Part shown: in pieces, positions 2,432-37,962 of the stretch
Layout: each line of letters starts with the position of its first letter
Numbering within the stretch: position 1 is the first letter of the stretch
IMG/VR virus record: IMGVR_UViG_3300037231_000287
Location: 1-38,948 of that record
DNA length: 38,948 nt
Reading direction: 5' to 3' (one strand)
Origin: a virus
Program-made: the position numbers and the translations under genes
The notes under the pieces: generated by a model
Databases searched by the model: none
Seen by the model: only the letters and a program-made list of their open reading frames with translations
Told to the model about the DNA's origin: nothing

Positions 2432-2959
2432 TCAGGCGATCTCTGCGCTCGCCGCTGGGAGCTCGCTGGCCGCACCCCAAATCACCGCATAAAGCGCCAG
2501 CCGGTAGGCGGCTATAGCTTGGTGAAACGCCACGAAACTGGCCCCCGATGGGAAGACGTGGAGTGCGCCGCTGCTATCCGGCCAACTCCACGTCGATGCG
2601 TTGCCTGGGAACGCCCCCGAATTCGCATTGATCAGCCCGGCCAGTTCGGCCGCCAGAGTCAGCGACAAACCGTCGAGCGCGTAGGTGCCGTTCAGCGCGG
2701 CAGCGTGCGCCGTGCTGGTCACGGCCAGACCCGCTCGTAGCGCGATCACTGCTGCGATTGAGGGCATTGGCACGGCGTCCACGGCCGGCGTGAAACTGCC
2801 TAGCGCGCCAGCGATGAAGGTGGTGGTAGCGGGCGCGGAAATCAGCGCGTTGTATTGCGCCTGGCTTATCAGCTGCGCCCCCGCCGGCGGCGCGGCGATC
2901 GCGCTGTCGAAGAAGCCCGTGGGGCGACCATGGCCGTCCGTTGTGACGTATTTTGTCAT
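2432..2959 (-). CDS. Tail fibre assembly-type protein (DUF4376-like)
   Basis: This 175-aa protein starts at MTKYVTTDGHGRPTGFFDS, 2959 being the first ATG directly after the stop of the upstream fibre gene (stop begins at 2961). The N-terminus, with TTDG-GRPTGFFDSAI and PAGAQLISQAQYNAL, looks like the N-terminal part of tail-fibre assembly proteins. The C-terminal half, WPDSSGALHVFPSGASFVAF followed by HQAIAAYRLALYAV, resembles the DUF4376 domain found in phage tail proteins. It probably acts as a fibre chaperone or fibre-bound subunit for the gene at 2961-3500. The domain call is from recognition by eye. Confidence 0.55.
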   Translation of the reverse strand: MTKYVTTDGHGRPTGFFDSAIAAPPAGAQLISQAQYNALISAPATTTFIAGALGSFTPAVDAVPMPSIAAVIALRAGLAVTSTAHAAALNGTYALDGLSLTLAAELAGLINANSGAFPGNASTWSWPDSSGALHVFPSGASFVAFHQAIAAYRLALYAVIWGAASELPAASAEIA

Positions 2960-2960
2960 G

Positions 2961-3500
2961 TCAGTTCCCCAACGCCATCCAAAACCCGCCAACGCTGGCG
3001 TTCGACGGAATAGCCGGACAGTAGATATCGATGTGCGAAAGGTCCGCGCCGGCACTTATGCCGTAACTGAGGCAGAAAGAGCCGCCATCATTGGCAAAAC
3101 CGCCCAAATACTGCGTCGGAAATGAGGCTCCGAGCAGTATCGACGTGGTCGGGGAGCTGGTTCCCGAAAAGGCAAAAGTACCGAAATTAACCACGATCGG
3201 CGGCCCGCTCACCAATGGCACGAAGAAATAGCCACTGACAACGGAGCCGGAGACCGTGAGGGAGCCACCGCCGGCGCCCCCCTGGCGGACAAGCGAGAGG
3301 ATCGCCGCCAGCACCTGACCGTTATTGGCCGCATTGGGTGTTTCCCCACCCGCCGCGATAATACCCATGAGCTCTTCTTGCACGCCGTTGAAGAAGAGGG
3401 CGTTGCCAAACGTCCCTTCCTGGTTAGCGGCAAGGTTTCGGTCCTGCCACATGCGCAGGCCGTTCACGAGGGCGTAATTGGCACCGCTTATTCGGTCCAT
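2961..3500 (-). CDS. Tail fibre protein, gp53-like C-terminus
   Basis: This is a 179-aa protein. The N-terminal 70 residues (MDRISGANYALVNG, then EGTFGNALFFNGVQEEL and NAANNGQVLAAI) are typical of short fibre subunits of contractile-tail phages. They connect to a beta-rich, Gly/Ser/Val-rich C-terminal domain ending GGFWMALGN, in the style of gp53-like receptor domains that end in a short aromatic motif. It is probably the distal receptor-contacting fibre. It follows the gp48 gene by 3 bp, the usual position of a fibre gene in Mu-like phages. Confidence 0.65.
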   Translation of the reverse strand: MDRISGANYALVNGLRMWQDRNLAANQEGTFGNALFFNGVQEELMGIIAAGGETPNAANNGQVLAAILSLVRQGGAGGGSLTVSGSVVSGYFFVPLVSGPPIVVNFGTFAFSGTSSPTTSILLGASFPTQYLGGFANDGGSFCLSYGISAGADLSHIDIYCPAIPSNASVGGFWMALGN

Positions 3501-3503
3501 GGA

Positions 3504-4184
3504 TTAACTCTCCTGCAAAATGTAGCCGGCGTTGTCTTCCAGCAGGATCGAGCCCGTGCCGTCTTCCAATGCGATCGACGAACCTGTCGCCGCCGTGTCG
3601 TAATTAAAGAAAAAAGTAATATGCAGCGGCGCGCTGCAGGTCATCGGGCAGACCGCCAGGTTCGGTATGAACGTCCCCAGGCTGTCGTCACACGTCGCGG
3701 CGCCACATTCGAAATTCGTCACCGAGGTCGCCGGAAGGTTGACCGCGATCGCGAAATTCTCCGCGTAGGGCACCATCTGATCGCTGCACGTCGATGCGCC
3801 GCAGACCCAATTCGGCACTTCGACGATCGTCAGATCGACGCCCAAACCGGCCGCCATATTCTCGAAATAGCCGGCGCAAATTGGGCCGCCGGCCGTCCAT
3901 CGTTGATAAACAATTGCCGCCTGCTGCTCGAACCCAAGCGCGGAAGTATCTCGGCCGCAAGGATCAGGACCGAGAACCCGCTGGTAATCGGGCAGCAAGT
4001 TGAAGGCGAACCGTGGGTCGACCTGCGGGCCCATCGCGTCGGAAGATACTTGCAGGTCGGAAATCACGGCACCAAGGCCGAGAAGTCGGGCAGCAAAATA
4101 ACTGTCGACGTCGGCCGGAAAAATCCAGCCCGGCGGCGCGAGCGCCAGCAATTCCGCCTGCACTTGGCTTGGCGTGCGCGACAT
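3504..4184 (-). CDS. Mu gp48-family baseplate/tail protein (DUF2313, YmfQ)
   Basis: This 226-aa protein belongs to the YmfQ/DUF2313 family, which completes the baseplate wedge next to gp47 and connects to the tail fibres. The diagnostic N-terminal part is present: LLALAPPGWIFP near residues 11-22 and LLPDYQRVLGPDPCG near residues 63-77, followed by a long section with paired cysteines (CGASTC, CGAATC, CPMTC) that are unusually frequent for this family. Its start overlaps the gp47 stop as TGATG. The C-terminus contains two GSI-LED-repeat-like strands (SIALEDGTGSILLEDNAG), perhaps a fibre-docking extension. Confidence 0.85.
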   Translation of the reverse strand: MSRTPSQVQAELLALAPPGWIFPADVDSYFAARLLGLGAVISDLQVSSDAMGPQVDPRFAFNLLPDYQRVLGPDPCGRDTSALGFEQQAAIVYQRWTAGGPICAGYFENMAAGLGVDLTIVEVPNWVCGASTCSDQMVPYAENFAIAVNLPATSVTNFECGAATCDDSLGTFIPNLAVCPMTCSAPLHITFFFNYDTAATGSSIALEDGTGSILLEDNAGYILQES

Positions 4185-5332: not shown

Positions 5333-5781
5333 GATAGCGCCTTGGTCACGGTCATTTTGGTGTTTGCAACGACGGCCTGAATGCCGAGAACCTGACGCTG
5401 CGTATAACCGACTTTGACGCCGACGCTGAGACCGCTGTTCTGGAAGTGTCCGAGCGCCTCCAGTGTCGCACTTTCACCGAGCTGCTTTGATTTGCGCGTC
5501 GCCTTCGCGCCATCCAACAACCAGAGCCGCGAACCGATCAGCTGGCCGGTGAAATCAAGCGCATCCCCGACCCATCCCTGCCGCGCCATCAGCGAGCCAG
5601 GAACGTAGAAATCGCTCTCCACTATGGGCAGAACGTCATCGCTGCGCGCGCGCCGATTGCACCCCATTGAGATAAGCATCGGCGTGGCGACCGTGGCGTC
5701 GAGCATCAGATCGGTGCCGTCGAACCCAAGGTCGCAACGTCCCGTCTGAGGATCCAAAACCAGCGCGTTATCGAGGAACAT
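5329..5781 (-). CDS. Mu gp46-family baseplate protein
   Basis: This is a 150-aa protein of the GP46 family, equivalent to the lysozyme-like wedge subunit gpW/gp25 of other contractile phages. It begins MFLDNALVLDPQTGRCDLG, and contains SDDVLPIVESDFYVPGSLMARQGW, RLWLLDGAKAT and VKVGYTQRQVLGIQAVV, all typical of the family. The start at 5781 was chosen because the longer open frame is Arg/His-rich shadow coding antisense to gp45. The gene lies after a 62-bp gap that carries one copy of the 22-bp repeat described among the findings, so it may begin a new transcription unit. Confidence 0.88.
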   Translation of the reverse strand: MFLDNALVLDPQTGRCDLGFDGTDLMLDATVATPMLISMGCNRRARSDDVLPIVESDFYVPGSLMARQGWVGDALDFTGQLIGSRLWLLDGAKATRKSKQLGESATLEALGHFQNSGLSVGVKVGYTQRQVLGIQAVVANTKMTVTKALS

Positions 5782-5816
5782 GGGGACCAGTTTTCCGCGT
5801 GCGCGCGAGTGCCTGG

Positions 5817-5838
5817 CATGCCCACCGTGGTGGGGTAG
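5817..5838. promoter_or_regulatory. 22-bp conserved dyad element, copy 1 (upstream of gp46)
   Basis: The 14-bp core CCCACCGTGGTGGG at 5821-5834 has 6-bp arms that are perfect inverted repeats; it is preceded by CATG and followed by GTAG. The same 22 bases, apart from one core position, occur at 18505-18526 and 30681-30702, each in a non-coding gap. This copy begins 5 bases after the gp45 stop (reading in the gene direction) and its core ends 39 bases before the gp46 ATG. A binding site for a late activator is the favoured reading. A processing hairpin is an alternative, and no U-run follows, so it is not a standard terminator. Confidence 0.6.
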
Positions 5839-5843
5839 TAAGA

Positions 5844-6428
5844 TTAGGCGGTGACGAAACCGGCCGCTGTGACGGTGCCCCCGACGTTCATATCGCCGTT
5901 CACTGCCCCGTTGCCCGCCACGCTCAAATCGCCGCCAATCGACATCGTGCCGGTGGTGCTGAAATCGCCCGTGACAGTCATATCGCCGGTTATTGCTGTC
6001 GGTCCAGTAATGGCGACCCCATTTGGTGCAGTAATCGACACGCCGGGCGTCTGTATGATCACCTGGTTGAAGCCAAAAATCTCCACGATCCCGCCGGCGC
6101 GCACGCGCACCCGACTGCCATCTTCCGCGTAGATGCAACCGCCATCACCGGGCGCCATCCCGCCGTAGCGGAACGACGGATTGCAGAGCGGAAGGGCAAT
6201 GTACTGGCCAGGATCGCCACCGATCGCGAGGAGGTTCACGACTGCGCCTTGGATTGGCGGCATCGAAGCAAACCCGAAAATGCTCTGCACTTCTATGCCG
6301 GTGCGAGTGATACCGCTGTGCGTCTGCACGGTAATAGTTTGGGCCTGTCCCGTGTCGTCGACCGAGAGAACAACGCCCTGCACCGTGTTGCCGCGGGCAT
6401 CATAAATCTGTTCGTGCAGCGCTTCCAT
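5844..6428 (-). CDS. Tail spike/baseplate protein (Mu gp45 family)
   Basis: This 194-aa protein is the gpV-like central spike that punctures the outer membrane. It has an OB-like N-terminal domain (GVVLSVDDTGQAQTITVQTH), the GFASMPPIQGAVVNLLAIGGDPGQ segment at about residues 51-74, and a C-terminal triple-stranded beta-helix made of short repeats (ITGDMTVTGDFSTTGTMSI, GGDLSVAGNGAVNGDMNV) with about 6 residues per rung. The start ATG follows the gp44 stop by a base. The C-terminal ending GFVTA lacks an obvious metal-binding tip motif. Confidence 0.9.
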   Translation of the reverse strand: MEALHEQIYDARGNTVQGVVLSVDDTGQAQTITVQTHSGITRTGIEVQSIFGFASMPPIQGAVVNLLAIGGDPGQYIALPLCNPSFRYGGMAPGDGGCIYAEDGSRVRVRAGGIVEIFGFNQVIIQTPGVSITAPNGVAITGPTAITGDMTVTGDFSTTGTMSIGGDLSVAGNGAVNGDMNVGGTVTAAGFVTA

Positions 6429-17430: not shown

Positions 17431-18020
17431 CAGACGGCACCTTTCTTCAGCTTCTTGTTCTTCAGGAAAGCCTCCTTCGAGACGCCCATTTTCTCACAGG
17501 ACATCTTCTCTTCAGGCGACCAGTCGTCGTCATCGCCGCCGGGCTTTTGGGCATGCAGAACGACCAGCTGCTCGCCGTTGATACCGCCGGCATGAAGGCT
17601 GGGCAGGCCGTTGATTTCCGTTTCAACGGCCGCCGGCTCTTTGGCATGACGGGTGATGAAATAATCGCGCAATGACGCGATCGGCTTGCCCGCCTTGATG
17701 GCGCCGTCGACGTATGAGGTCGCGCGCTCCTTGGCGCCCTGCTGCGTCAACGTATCCAGCTGCGTCTGCAGCGTGATGACTTGCTGCGCCATGAGCTGCA
17801 CTTCGGTGCCGCCCCCGGCGCGCTGCGCTTGCAGCTCCACCACCAGGCCATCCGCATCGGCCGCCTTCAGGCCGCCGGCCGCGGCGATCCGCTGCAACTG
17901 CGCGGAATGCGTGGCTACCGCCGTGGTCGCCGCCGCACCGGCCTGGACGGCCGCCAGAACAGCGGCTTCGTCCGCCGTCTCGGGCAAACCGAGGGCGGCG
18001 CGTAGAGCTTTCAAATCCAT
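17430..18020 (-). CDS. Internal-start scaffold protein (Mu Z-like)
   Basis: An in-frame ATG at 18020 inside the protease gene starts MDLKALRAALGLPETAD, preceded by a clear AGGAAG-type ribosome-binding site 6 bases upstream. The product would be 196 aa, lacking the protease domain. In Mu, scaffold Z is translated from within I in this way. The product is Ala/Gln/Thr-rich and predicted helical (LQRIAAAGGLKAADADGLVV). It is listed as separate because the RBS decides a second start. Confidence 0.6.
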   Translation of the reverse strand: MDLKALRAALGLPETADEAAVLAAVQAGAAATTAVATHSAQLQRIAAAGGLKAADADGLVVELQAQRAGGGTEVQLMAQQVITLQTQLDTLTQQGAKERATSYVDGAIKAGKPIASLRDYFITRHAKEPAAVETEINGLPSLHAGGINGEQLVVLHAQKPGGDDDDWSPEEKMSCEKMGVSKEAFLKNKKLKKGAV

Positions 18021-18479
18021 TCCAGCTTCCTGCTCAGAGTGAAGTGTTTCGAGGTCGGGGAGGTTCGGCGTGTTTGTGAGTGCGGCTCTCATTACGCGCC
18101 GCACAGCGCCGGTCTTTTTGTCGATGGCGATCGCCGGACTCATGCCGCGATAGGCGTGTTCGCTCATCAGCTGCGTTCCGGCGGCGGTCCATTCCACCCG
18201 GCCCCAGATGCCGTCCGCGCGGGACTGCATTTCGTATATCCAGCCGCGCGCCGGGCTCGGCTGTCCCGTGGTCATGGCGAGATCAATTGCGTGATTTTCG
18301 TCGATGGCGATGGGACCATCAGCGAGGCTGGCATCGATCACGGCCTGCGCGCTGTTCAGCACGTAAGGGCCACGGCCATCGAGGCCGGAGAATTTGCCTG
18401 CCGGTACGAGGTGCACCCATTCAGGGGGCGCTGCGCCGGCGGCCAAAACGCTGTGGAGATAAACTTTCATCGCCGGCAT
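17430..18479 (-). CDS. I: Prohead protease/scaffold (Mu gpI, gp32 family)
   Basis: This is the head maturation protease joined to a scaffold. ATG 18479 (MPAMKVYLHS) gives 349 aa; an alternative ATG at 18470 (MKVYLHS) is equally possible. The N-terminal part, with PPEWVHLVPAGKFSGLDGRGP, ADGPIAIDENHAIDLAMTTG, and RADGIWGRVEWTAAG, matches Mu-type I proteases; the catalytic residues were not assigned by eye. The C-terminal half from MDLKALRAALGLP onwards is scaffold-like, with Ala/Gln-rich helices and a Lys-rich end. The 14-bp dyad element lies 29-38 bases upstream of the two ATGs. Confidence 0.88.
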   Translation of the reverse strand: MPAMKVYLHSVLAAGAAPPEWVHLVPAGKFSGLDGRGPYVLNSAQAVIDASLADGPIAIDENHAIDLAMTTGQPSPARGWIYEMQSRADGIWGRVEWTAAGTQLMSEHAYRGMSPAIAIDKKTGAVRRVMRAALTNTPNLPDLETLHSEQEAGMDLKALRAALGLPETADEAAVLAAVQAGAAATTAVATHSAQLQRIAAAGGLKAADADGLVVELQAQRAGGGTEVQLMAQQVITLQTQLDTLTQQGAKERATSYVDGAIKAGKPIASLRDYFITRHAKEPAAVETEINGLPSLHAGGINGEQLVVLHAQKPGGDDDDWSPEEKMSCEKMGVSKEAFLKNKKLKKGAV

Positions 18480-18714
18480 GATGACCGGCGGCCTTCGGGC
18501 CGCGCATGCCCACCGCGGTGGGGTAGTAGCGCGTCGCTCTCCCGCGGAAAACGCTAAGGCAGAGGCACCCGGATTTCTAGCCCGTACAGCCGGGGCGGCT
18601 TGACGACGTCCAAGCCCCGCGCCCTGTGCCGCCATGGCGGCGTAGCCCCGCTCTTAGCGGTCTTATTTACCTCTCAAACTTATCGCTGGATGGCCAACTA
18701 TCCAAGATCGGTGT
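18480..18714. other. Central non-coding region between I and the 44-aa gene
   Basis: I see no credible gene in this 235-bp gap. Within it are: the GCGGCC-CGAA-GGCCGC hairpin (about 18488-18504); copy 2 of the dyad repeat; a perfect GCCGCCATGGCGGC palindrome near 18640; and further G/C-rich arms (GGGGC/GCCCC). It sits between I and G at 18.5-18.7 kb of 38.9 kb, the exact place where Mu has its central strong gyrase site. It is a candidate regulatory/topology site. No promoter consensus or RNA gene was identified in it. Confidence 0.5.
18505..18526. promoter_or_regulatory. 22-bp conserved dyad element, copy 2 (upstream of I)
   Basis: The core CCCACCGCGGTGGG at 18509-18522 is a perfect 14-bp palindrome, preceded by CATG and followed by GTAG. 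It lies 29 bases before ATG 18479 and 38 before ATG 18470 of the head protease gene. This is the position of the Mu late promoter P-I. Next to it (18488-18504) a separate stem GCGGCC/GGCCGC occurs. Function is inferred from recurrence and position. Confidence 0.6.
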
Positions 18715-18849
18715 TCACCGACCCTGGAGATATTGCACGAGGGTGCCGACAAGCCCGAACAATATAAGGCCGGCGAAGCAGATCCCCGCCAATCCGAGCA
18801 GTATCTGGTTTAAGCGGGGCATCGGCTTCTTGTTTTCCAGTGATGTCAT
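18715..18849 (-). CDS. 44-aa small membrane protein
   Basis: This short gene begins MTSLENKKPMPRLNQ and continues with one hydrophobic stretch (LLGLAGICFAGLILFGLVG) before a short QYLQGR end. A GGAG ribosome-binding site precedes the ATG by 8 bases. It is a single-pass membrane peptide with no recognised family. It lies between G and the central non-coding region, so it is last in its local transcription unit. A lysis or host-modifying role is possible but not shown. Confidence 0.65.
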   Translation of the reverse strand: MTSLENKKPMPRLNQILLGLAGICFAGLILFGLVGTLVQYLQGR

Positions 18850-30680: not shown

Positions 30681-30702
30681 CATGCCCACCGTGGTGGGGT
30701 AG
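30681..30702. promoter_or_regulatory. 22-bp conserved dyad element, copy 3 (start of late region)
   Basis: The core CCCACCGTGGTGGG at 30685-30698 is preceded by CATG and followed by GTAG, exactly as at copies 1 and 2 except for a single core base difference from copy 2. It starts two bases after the stop of the Mor/C-type activator in the gene direction and lies upstream of the lipoprotein and lysis/packaging genes, the place of Mu Plys. No standard -10/-35 was confirmed. Confidence 0.6.
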
Positions 30703-30704
30703 CG

Positions 30705-31130
30705 TCAGATCAGTTCGAAATCCAACTGCCTGGCGCTGCCATCCTGTGGCTGGCGCTGCATGCCCTTATGGGTCCGCGCCATCGGTGCCCAGCCGCTGTT
30801 TGCCAGCCGCTGAACGAAACTCTCGGTCGCACCGACCAGCAGGGCGATCTCGCCGTGGCTGCGGCCACCTTGCGCCATTAAAACCCGCGCTCGCCATTCG
30901 CGGCACAGCGGCAGACGCATGAGCGTGCCACCGAAACTACCCCCGAGGCGCATCAAAGAAACCTCATCCAGGTGCGCCGTCAAGAAGCTGTTGGAAACAT
31001 TCTCGGGCTTGGGCACGTGCAGCCGCGTTCCGCCACGCAGCGCCAGCAGGCGCATCGTGTTGTCCACGCCGATGCAGCCGACGAGCTCGGCTACTTCGGG
31101 GGGCGGATCGGGGATGCGTGCAACCCGCAT
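30705..31130 (-). CDS. Mor/C-type late/middle transcription activator
   Basis: This 141-aa protein fits the Mor/C family: a helical N-terminal dimer part (PDPPPEVAELVGCIGVDNTM), RGGTRLHVPKPENVSNSFLT (the strand-like HVPK segment resembles the Mor beta-strand) and a C-terminal helix-turn-helix (GRSHGEIALLVGATESFVQR, about residues 88-107). Mor activates the middle promoter and C the late promoters in Mu; only one such gene is seen here, so it may do both. It is immediately followed by dyad copy 3. Confidence 0.75.
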   Translation of the reverse strand: MRVARIPDPPPEVAELVGCIGVDNTMRLLALRGGTRLHVPKPENVSNSFLTAHLDEVSLMRLGGSFGGTLMRLPLCREWRARVLMAQGGRSHGEIALLVGATESFVQRLANSGWAPMARTHKGMQRQPQDGSARQLDFELI

Positions 31131-34572: not shown

Positions 34573-34628
34573 GTAGCCTCTCTCTGCCCGTCTGGGGCGT
34601 TGCGTTGCGTCCGGCCGGCGACGATCCC

Positions 34629-36605
34629 TCAATCGTCGCCGGCCTCCTCCACCAGCCGCAGCTGGCCGTACTGCGCGCGGCGGGCCTGCGCTGCCGCCAC
34701 GAACAATTCGTCTGTTTCGGCTTCGCGCTCTTGCTCGGCAGCCGGCCGTGCCGCGATCGCCGCGTTGCCGTTGAACATGCGCACCACCTTTGTTTCCGGC
34801 AGCGGCGGGGCCTCGGTATCCCGCTTCGTCAGTTCTATGAGCCGCTGGGTGGTCATGCCGCCGCGCTCGATCGCGTCGTTGGCGGCTGCATTGCGGCGGT
34901 ATGTCGCAAGGTTGCGGGCATGGATTTTGGCGGCTTCCATATCGTTGAAGCCAACGGCTTCCAGACATGGCGCTGCACCAAGATACGATCCGTCCCAGTG
35001 ATACACGTGCAAGTCTTCATGCAGCGCGTCGGGATCAAACCGAACCGTCAGGCTTGCACCGGTAAATTGCTGCAGAAACTGCGCCCAATAGCGATTTCCG
35101 TGGAAATAGATGGAGCTATCGGGCGCGCGCGGTTTGATGTGTTGCGCGGCCAGCAACCACAACTGCTTGTGCTTTGGAGAAGCCTTCTTGATCTGTGATT
35201 TGTTGTAGGAAATCTCAAAAGCTTGCTGAAATGATAGCTTGCCCGCGCAAACCTTGGTGCGGCGCCCGGCGCGGGCGTTGTGATCGCGAATGCCTTCGCC
35301 AACCACCTGTAGGAAAAGCTCGATCGGCACAGCCTTTGAAGCGTCGAAATCTTCCGGCCTGGCGCCCGGCGAGTTGCCGCAGTACGCGCCTTCGAAGCGG
35401 ATATCCTTGGCGATCCGCCGGGCGAAGTCACCAAAACCACGCTCGATGGGCTTACTCTGGCCCGAATATGGCAGCGTGAAGCGCACATCGACGCCGAGCT
35501 GCTTCATGATGCCTTCGGGTTCAGCCTCCCGGTATTTGTAGCGGAAGCGGTTCTTGATGCCGCCCGTCAGGGCCTTCGCGGTGAAGCCGCGGCCGTTATC
35601 GAGGTAGCAGAGGTCGGGAATGCCATAGGTTTCGACCATTTCGCCGAAAGCCCGTTGCACCAGATACAGATTTTCAGTCCGATCAACCTTCCAAGACAAA
35701 AACATGTCGGAATAAAGGTCTTGAAATCCGACCATCATCGGGCGGCCGACAACTCCATCCGCCCAGCGCACGAAAACGTCCCACTTGTGGCCGTCCGCGT
35801 TCACCGCCTGCAGAGCATGGAATACGCTCCGGTCGCGATCCTGGTGCGGGAATTTTGCCTTGACGGCGTGGCGCCCCTCGCGCGCCAGCGTCAATGTTTC
35901 GACCGGCACCTGCTGCATGCGCCGCCACATTGTCGCCCGGCTCGGTAGGATCCAGCCGTTCTCTTTCGCCACCTTCCAAATCGCGAAATATGCGTCGCTG
36001 AACAGCGGCTTCGATTGGCGGGCATATTCGGCATAGAGCGCGTTCCACGCCTCTGGTGAGCACTCGGCCGTCGCCGTGCGCCCTGCGTAACTCGGCGCCA
36101 GCAGGGGAAGCCACTCTGTGCGCGGCCGGCCTTTAACCTTGCGCTCCCAATCGTAGACGGCGCTCTTGCTTACGCCGAAGGCCTGCGCGACATCGATCAG
36201 GGCATTCAGCTTTGGCCGGCCGGTGCGCTCCACCATGTCGCGCACCATGTCCAGCACTTGCAGGCGTCGGTCCGCTTCCGCGCGGGATTTCTCGGTCTGC
36301 TTAAAGAACCAGTCCCACAAAGCCGCGTCAGTGCCGGCCGCCTGCGCATTTGTGCGCTCGGCATCGTCATTCACGATGGCATTTGCCGCCGACCAGGTCA
36401 GGCGCGCGTCGGGCGGCAATACCGACCAATGGTATTCGAAGCCGCCGCCGCGCTCGGCCCGTCGGCGCCAACGCTTGCCGGCCCACTCCGGCCGGCGCCA
36501 GTCGTCACGTTCGGCCAGCGCCAGTACGTTCACTTTGGAAGTGGGAACGCCCGGCAACCCCATGGCGGCGATTTCTGCCGCGGTGAACCATTCGCATGGG
36601 GCCAT
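34629..36605 (-). CDS. A: MuA-type DDE transposase
   Basis: This 658-aa transposase carries an intact DDE set at D271 (VNADGHKW), D336 (YLDNGRGF) and E388 (SKPIERGF); in Mu these are D269, D336 and E392. The N-terminal Mu HTH (MAPCEWFTAAEIAAMGLPGV, about residues 1-65) binds enhancer/operator sequences, followed by end-binding HTHs (ALIDVAQAFGVSKSAVYDWE), the catalytic rve-like domain about 240-440, the Mu C-terminal beta-barrel and a charged tail that may bind B. It starts as TGATG after the upstream gene. Confidence 0.95.
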   Translation of the reverse strand: MAPCEWFTAAEIAAMGLPGVPTSKVNVLALAERDDWRRPEWAGKRWRRRAERGGGFEYHWSVLPPDARLTWSAANAIVNDDAERTNAQAAGTDAALWDWFFKQTEKSRAEADRRLQVLDMVRDMVERTGRPKLNALIDVAQAFGVSKSAVYDWERKVKGRPRTEWLPLLAPSYAGRTATAECSPEAWNALYAEYARQSKPLFSDAYFAIWKVAKENGWILPSRATMWRRMQQVPVETLTLAREGRHAVKAKFPHQDRDRSVFHALQAVNADGHKWDVFVRWADGVVGRPMMVGFQDLYSDMFLSWKVDRTENLYLVQRAFGEMVETYGIPDLCYLDNGRGFTAKALTGGIKNRFRYKYREAEPEGIMKQLGVDVRFTLPYSGQSKPIERGFGDFARRIAKDIRFEGAYCGNSPGARPEDFDASKAVPIELFLQVVGEGIRDHNARAGRRTKVCAGKLSFQQAFEISYNKSQIKKASPKHKQLWLLAAQHIKPRAPDSSIYFHGNRYWAQFLQQFTGASLTVRFDPDALHEDLHVYHWDGSYLGAAPCLEAVGFNDMEAAKIHARNLATYRRNAAANDAIERGGMTTQRLIELTKRDTEAPPLPETKVVRMFNGNAAIAARPAAEQEREAETDELFVAAAQARRAQYGQLRLVEEAGDD

Positions 36606-37069: not shown

Positions 37070-37165
37070 CTAGCGCTCGTCGCCGGTCAGGTGTGGACGG
37101 TTACCGTTCGCGATATCGTCGCGCATCGGCTCCACGGCCGGCGTATTCTGATCAATTTTGGTCAT
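37070..37165 (-). CDS. 31-aa coupled small ORF
   Basis: A short ORF (MTKIDQNTPAVEPMRDDIAN, then GNRPHLTGDER) whose ATG overlaps the ParB-like stop as ATGA. It is charged and may be disordered. It ends 10 bases before the next gene's start. It is real only if coupling is functional; nothing else supports it. Confidence 0.4.
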   Translation of the reverse strand: MTKIDQNTPAVEPMRDDIANGNRPHLTGDER

Positions 37166-37962
37166 TGGGCGCGCGCCCGCGGCGTGCGCGGCTTCATCTC
37201 ACGCGCCACGTATTCAGCTATCAGCGCGCGGGCATTCGGACTGGCCTTTGCCCACCGGACCTTGAAATCGTCGAGCGTCTTTTGATCGGCATCGACATGC
37301 TCCGGCAGCGAGCCCCTCACATCCGACAGCGCGGCTGAAACCGTGGAAAAAGAGGGTTCCCCCTCGGGCGGCAGCAGGCGGTCAATGACCGCGCGCCGAT
37401 CATCGATATCTTCGATCGCCGCAATGGCCACTAGTTCTTGGTATTTGTTGGCGAGAGTGGAGACGGCGATCCGGGCGCGCAGGTCGCTCGGAAGCTCATC
37501 CATCATCGCGTTCAAACCAACGAGTTTCTCAACCCAGCGCTTCGAAAAGCCCAGCTTTTCCGCCACGTCGGACTTCAGCGAACTACGTTCGCTCCTTCCT
37601 ATATCGGAATGGTCGCCCTGCAGGCTGATCCTTTCCGCCACGAATTTCGCCCGGTCGAGGGTGCTCAACTCGTTCCTTATTAGGTTCTCATCGATCTCGC
37701 GAAGGCGGGCCTCCTTGTCGGTTCCCTCAAAGAAAACGACGGGGACGGTTTTCTTGCCGGCGGCCTTGGCCGCGGCCAGTCGGTGCGCGCCGGCAACCAG
37801 CCTGTATCTGCCGCCGACCAGTTCTTTGCGGACCTCAATTGGGGTCATGATCCCCTTCCGCGCCATGACGGAGTGGGCCATTTCGGCCACATACTCCAGG
37901 TTCACGTCGCGCAGCCGTCCGCTATCGTCGATCAGATCGACGTTTATCGTTTCGATGTTCAT
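37162..37962 (-). CDS. ParB/Spo0J-domain DNA-binding protein
   Basis: This 266-aa protein has an N-terminal ParB domain: PIEVRKELVGGRYRLVAGAH with GAHR (58-61), then VPVVFFEGTD and ENLIRNELSTLDRA (92-105). A helix-turn-helix (SDVAEKLGFSKRWVEKLVGL, about residues 130-149) follows. The C-terminal part is helical. It is in the early operon just after Ner, ATGA-coupled. ParB-type domains bind CTP and spread on DNA from a palindromic site. No ParA was seen in the window. It might act on replication, partition or regulation. Confidence 0.88.
   Translation of the reverse strand: MNIETINVDLIDDSGRLRDVNLEYVAEMAHSVMARKGIMTPIEVRKELVGGRYRLVAGAHRLAAAKAAGKKTVPVVFFEGTDKEARLREIDENLIRNELSTLDRAKFVAERISLQGDHSDIGRSERSSLKSDVAEKLGFSKRWVEKLVGLNAMMDELPSDLRARIAVSTLANKYQELVAIAAIEDIDDRRAVIDRLLPPEGEPSFSTVSAALSDVRGSLPEHVDADQKTLDDFKVRWAKASPNARALIAEYVAREMKPRTPRARAQ

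Follow-up and report, generated by a model that had tools for sequence, protein, structure and literature searches.

A phased TTAA/TAAG array and a putative C/Mor-activated late promoter in the central G-I gap of a Mu-like phage

Results

Gene content and the gap upstream of I

The window, that is, the whole 38,948-base virus record analyzed here, is a Mu-like phage. It encodes MuA and MuB (Table 1) as well as GemA and Gp27 (Pfam), and its minus strand carries terminase, portal, F, G, I, and T (PHROGs); gp45 lies at 5844-6428 and gp46 extends from an ATG at 5781 to 5329 (Pfam Gp45 and GP46). The nearest relatives found were viral contig L004, whose major head protein is 90% identical to that of the window, the Acetobacteraceae MAG phage L087, and the Komagataeibacter phage L088. 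For gene I, position 18470 (MKVYLHS..., an N-terminus conserved in relatives) is most likely a better start than 18479. The frame is open upstream of I to 18635, and this extension is not conserved, with L004 having an in-frame stop before I. Gene I is central, at 0.526 of the record, the ends of which may differ from those of the phage. Elsewhere in the window, a perfect 13-bp stem, GGCCGGCGACGAT...ATCGTCGCCGGCC, lies at the end of the MuA gene (34613-34644), and a protein that is ParB-like by sequence appearance is encoded near the transposase (37162-37962), as is also the case in Thiobacimonas phage P1 (KT381864).

Table 1. Features of the window (coordinates in the 38,948-base record)
Feature	Position	Strand	Basis or remark
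MuA	34629-36605		
MuB	33607-34572		
Gene I, head maturation protease, 346 aa	17430..18470	-	phrog_328, E 1.3e-65; start by conserved N-terminus
C/Mor-type late transcriptional activator gene, presumed dyad reader	30705..31130	-	phrog_836, E 3.6e-14
Palindromic activator site (C/Mor dyad) of putative P_I, CCCACCGCGGTGGGCATG	18505..18522	-	three near-identical late-strand copies; relatives' own palindromes at same place
Dyad copy 2, P_lys-like position directly after activator gene	30681..30698	-	one mismatch
Dyad copy 3, between gp45 and gp46	5817..5834	-	one mismatch
CATCAT, -10-like hexamer of putative P_I, 7 nt before I start	18478..18483	-	dyad-anchored composition
Second promoter-like element TAGAAA-N17-TAGCGT, between array and putative P_I	18551..18579	-	by eye, nearest relatives only
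Palindrome GCCGCCATGGCGGC, probably chance	18628..18641	-	not conserved in L004, closest relative
Helically phased units TGAGAG-TAAGAC-TAAGAG at 11- and 9-bp intervals, candidate gyrase-wrapping arm of a strong gyrase site	18651..18676	-	

An earlier note on this DNA had drawn attention to a noncoding gap between I and a 44-aa open reading frame (ORF; 18715-18849, minus strand), and had proposed it as a candidate counterpart of the Mu strong gyrase site (SGS) on account of two palindromes and a hairpin. The gap is real, both palindromes are exact (CCCACCGCGGTGGG at 18509-18522 and GCCGCCATGGCGGC at 18628-18641), and the GCGGCC-TTCG-GGCCGC hairpin is present near 18490-18503. Perfect loop-free palindromes of 14 nt are not rare, as there are six in the window. 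RNA folding of the gap was no better than that of shuffles (z of -0.90 and +0.33), and no match to the gap was obtained in an Rfam search, by blastn against phages, or with a simple sigma-70 scan; scanning viral contigs with a 17-nt pattern was unspecific. We also considered the upstream part of the gap as a conserved stem, CGCTAAG/CTTAGCG, and rejected it since, as judged by eye, the stem is lost in L004 and L008.

The I-proximal half of the gap resembles a C-activated late promoter

The element CCCACC(R)CGGTGGGCATG occurs three times in the window, always on the minus (late) strand, with one copy following the C/Mor gene, one preceding I, and one separating gp45 from gp46. A search of both strands of the window for CCCACCGCGGTGGGCATG, allowing up to 3 mismatches, returned 5 matches versus 0.12 expected (0/100 shuffles). 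With the ATG of I taken as the transcription start, which is itself inferred, the dyad axis lies at about -44 to -45.5; the start of the putative P_I transcript would be at or adjoining this ATG. The -10 hexamers of P_I (18470-18483) and of the gp46 site (5779-5794) sit 6 to 7 nt before the ATG, with most relatives being alike, and because of this placement the mRNAs from both sites may be leaderless. The second promoter-like element retains an identical 17-bp spacing in L004, L006, L008, L011, and L012 (by eye).

Related phages each repeat a palindrome of their own at the sites occupied in the window, and these palindromes are unlike that of the window except in G001, which has the same one: GCCGGTSGGCGCCGGC in G002 and G003, ACCGACRCGCGTCGG in G004, CAGGTATCGNNCGATACCTG in G005, and GCCCGCCNNGGCGGGC in G008 and others. 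Two or three copies were present in most relatives examined. Both extra copies exceeded a Markov null in G001 to G005, and copies were not above this null in G007, G010, G011, and G016, the I start used being imprecise for the last three. In the window and in ten relatives alike, an ORF resembling a C/Mor activator adjoins the first dyad copy, and phrog_836 matched proteins of all seven relatives tested in addition to that of the window itself. Phages sharing a palindrome (window and G001; G002 and G003) have activator helix-turn-helix segments that are near-identical by eye.

We then scanned 159 nonredundant loci for dyad position. The center of the best dyad upstream of I fell within one 5-nt bin at -45 in 41/109, relative to at most 7 in control stretches, and 36 different arms were represented among 52 dyads. 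Alignment anchored on the dyad revealed a conserved A at +33 and a conserved T at +37, corresponding to a -10 hexamer located 6 to 7 nt before the ATG. Upstream of I in L337 (~1762-1991), there seem to be two copies of the palindrome region and of a CTAGAAATCGC...GCGCGTAG element, one copy of the latter being inverted. The recurrent pattern makes it very likely that the CCCACCGCGGTGGG region is the C-activated late promoter P_I, with C binding and activation being deduced from sequence.

A phased TAAG array lies in the upstream half of the gap

A phased array of TAAG units, which had escaped the earlier note, is the gap's most significant feature. In the window, the units TGAGAG (18676), TAAGAC (18665), and TAAGAG (18656) lie at -206, -195, and -186 from I, respectively; the first is degenerate (not TAAG), likewise in L331 and L351. 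The upstream regions of the nearest relatives carry TAAG(A)G direct repeats spaced 9 to 11 bp apart. Across 159 nonredundant upstream regions (-270 to -60), TAAG pairs 9 to 12 bp apart numbered 28 versus 0.93 in shuffles (shuffle maximum of 6), with a second peak at 19 to 21 bp. The complementary CTTA was hardly enriched upstream of I, indicating that the arrays are same-oriented, and their spacing (11, then 9 to 10 bp) is stereotyped.

To place these units along the phages, triples were counted in 100-bp bins aligned on I, with overlapping chains included. The 318 gap bins contained 43 TTAA/TAAG triples, whereas the 13,178 other bins contained 18. This ~99-fold enrichment over flanking phage DNA is descriptive, as are the other enrichment figures, since this unit-based test was designed after the repeats had been spotted by eye. 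TAAG triples alone numbered 11 in gap bins and 0 elsewhere. Counted per locus, a triple was present in 15/159 and a strict pair in 38/159. Among the controls, AATT, TTTT, ATTA, and permuted tetramers displayed little or no enrichment in the gap. AAAA triples were enriched 30-fold there, and hence the A/T-richness of the gap contributes to the array enrichment.

The array occurs in phages of Devosia, Komagataeibacter, Eikenella, Shewanella, Serratia, Glaesserella, and Terasakiispira, so that its hosts span the alpha-, beta-, and gammaproteobacteria; the TTAA arrays of beta- and gammaproteobacterial phages came to light only after the unit test had been set. Comparison of the gap across related phages detected the array in 23/56 long G-I gaps versus 0/43 short gaps (<180 nt). 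Thus, the site is not universal, as the short-gap phages have none. Single phages have extra genes between G and the array: the 44-aa ORF of the window encodes a probable membrane protein, and L008 carries a 338-aa methyltransferase-like ORF (2938-3954). These genes look as if they were cargo inserts beside the site. In D3112-like phages, anti-CRISPR genes have been reported at the expected SGS position (PMC8705779).

A/T phasing extends beyond the array units

Outside the selected array units, A/T upstream of the arrays was in phase with a best period of 10.5 bp (P = 0.009, circular shifts), and A/T downstream was in phase at 9.5 to 10 bp (P < 0.001, circular shifts), both tests assuming independent loci, for which related phages qualify only in part. 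Arrays of the same kind at other places in these phages showed weaker flanking phasing. As a family average, the phasing around the gap arrays reached ~70 bp on each side and spanned about 150 bp. For the window alone, whole-gap periodicity was weak, and ranks from a generic scan of entire gaps for 10-bp periodicity were mixed (window, 19/138 stretches; G001, 55/130; G007, 98/139). The distance from the last array unit to I ranged from 83 to 274 bp (standard deviation, 49 bp) without clear helical coherence (R of 0.23), which argues against a promoter-bound activator.

Discussion

We consider the gap to be composite, with its I-proximal half forming the late promoter P_I and its upstream half a candidate gyrase wrapping array, a reading to which we assign a probability of roughly 0.6. 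The place singled out by the earlier note was right and its landmark wrong: the palindromes are no part of a gyrase-type site, and an SGS-type site in this gap is plausible for the upstream array, given its position, phasing, and conservation across phages.

The proximal half has much in common with the Mu late promoters activated by C (P_lys, P_I, P_P, and P_mom). The window likewise encodes an activator of the same family with the first dyad straight after its gene, has further dyads preceding I and a tail gene as well as one on the lysis side, and has a -10 hexamer without a clear -35 element. Mor and its promoter P_m are the structurally mapped relative of the C-activated promoters. A Mor dimer occupies inverted repeats centered at -43.5 and so substitutes for the -35 element (PMC4390567), and the window dyad is centered near -44. 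In contrast to the Mu promoters, dyads of the window type are phage-specific and GC-rich, the -10 hexamer is CAnnnT, the third site precedes gp46, and transcription seems to begin at the start codon itself.

The annotated gyrase cut of Mu falls at 17879/17880, which is 176 bp upstream of I, and TTAA steps occur at -161, -140, and -128 from I (21 and 12 bp apart). These steps are in the right arm of the Mu SGS, an essential region containing bending repeats (PMC10052514). The array of the window similarly lies in a mid-genome G-I gap, presents phased TA-rich steps from -206 to -186, and belongs to a family with long-range A/T phasing. It differs from the Mu site in its T(A/G)AGAG unit, set in a GC-rich genome, and in its spacing of 11 and then 9 to 10 bp; the gap has no DNA similarity to the Mu SGS, the DNA of which has no matches beyond Mu, D108, SfMu, and their close kin. 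Gyrase motifs mapped by Topo-Seq have two arms of 47 bp, each with a GC periodicity of 10.75 bp (PMC6379681), and a GC periodicity of 10 to 11 bp is common to the gyrases of several species (PMC6379681, PMC12324340); the ~150 bp of phased A/T around the arrays, as a family average, resembles these motifs.

Because the flanking A/T is phased, the Mu SGS is similar, and the distance from array to I is variable, a gyrase wrapping arm is probably the function of the array, gyrase as its reader being our deduction from these patterns. Simple A/T phasing would not require a core as specific as TAAG, and the array may therefore have a reader other than gyrase; this specificity, together with the one-way orientation, could reflect recognition by a sequence-specific protein or shared ancestry. 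Transcription control alone is the strongest competitor, albeit a less likely one: besides P_I, there would be a regulator of host or phage origin on the upstream array, for instance a response regulator on 10- to 11-bp direct repeats, and it would serve the promoter-like element at 18551-18579, with no role for gyrase. The sequence-specific, same-oriented core, the stereotyped spacing, and the fact that this element comes after the array in the nearest clade all favor such control, whereas the incoherent distances to I and the A/T phasing on either side of the array speak against it. TTAA-N7-TTAA resembles a CtrA box, and yet we think it unlikely that the array units are CtrA boxes. Arrays occur in beta- and gammaproteobacterial phages (e.g., L106, L126, L139, L141, and L156), and these bacteria are not known to have CtrA.

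We regard it as unlikely that the array is instead read by a phage protein, such as the ParB-like one, or by bending proteins of the HU/IHF type, thereby organizing a prophage domain. The array is single-copy and central, the window does encode a ParB-like protein, and the Mu domain requires IHF, HU, and Fis (PMC3820752). Nevertheless, the core of the array is constant while the activator dyads of these phages diverge, which implies a conserved reader, and ThP1 carries a ParB-like gene without an array pair in its gap. The original proposal of a gyrase site marked by palindromes and hairpin retains its mid-genome position between G and I, but is very improbable given that CCCACCGCGGTGGG is the late-promoter dyad present in three copies and GCCGCCATGGCGGC is not conserved in L004. 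Least probable of all is a structured noncoding RNA or an N-terminal extension of I, to which the locally stable stems and the open frame might point; the folding and Rfam results speak against the former and the in-frame stop in L004 against the latter.

Under the composite reading, a dimeric activator of the C/Mor family would bind the palindrome ~44 bp upstream of the transcription start and stand in for a -35 element, so that host RNA polymerase could use the -10 hexamer very near I, a switch that would turn on the capsid genes late in infection. In the upstream half, a single-copy array of TA steps that all face the same side of the helix would allow host gyrase to wrap the DNA around the GyrA C-terminal domain, and the array would act as the equivalent of the Mu SGS, which aids the pairing of the prophage ends.

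Whether this extends to the family is, in our estimate, evenly balanced: a phased TTAA/TAAG array in the G-I gap could be a general, recognizable signature of strong gyrase sites in transposable phages of alpha-, beta-, and gammaproteobacteria, with the right arm of the Mu SGS as one case and a sizeable short-gap class of Mu-like phages having lost, or never had, an array there. The late-promoter dyads would provide a matched activator and binding site for each Mu-like phage, useful for studying C/Mor specificity. The array, in turn, would offer a computable prediction of where such gyrase-type sites lie and which phages lack them, making the question open to deletion and cleavage mapping.
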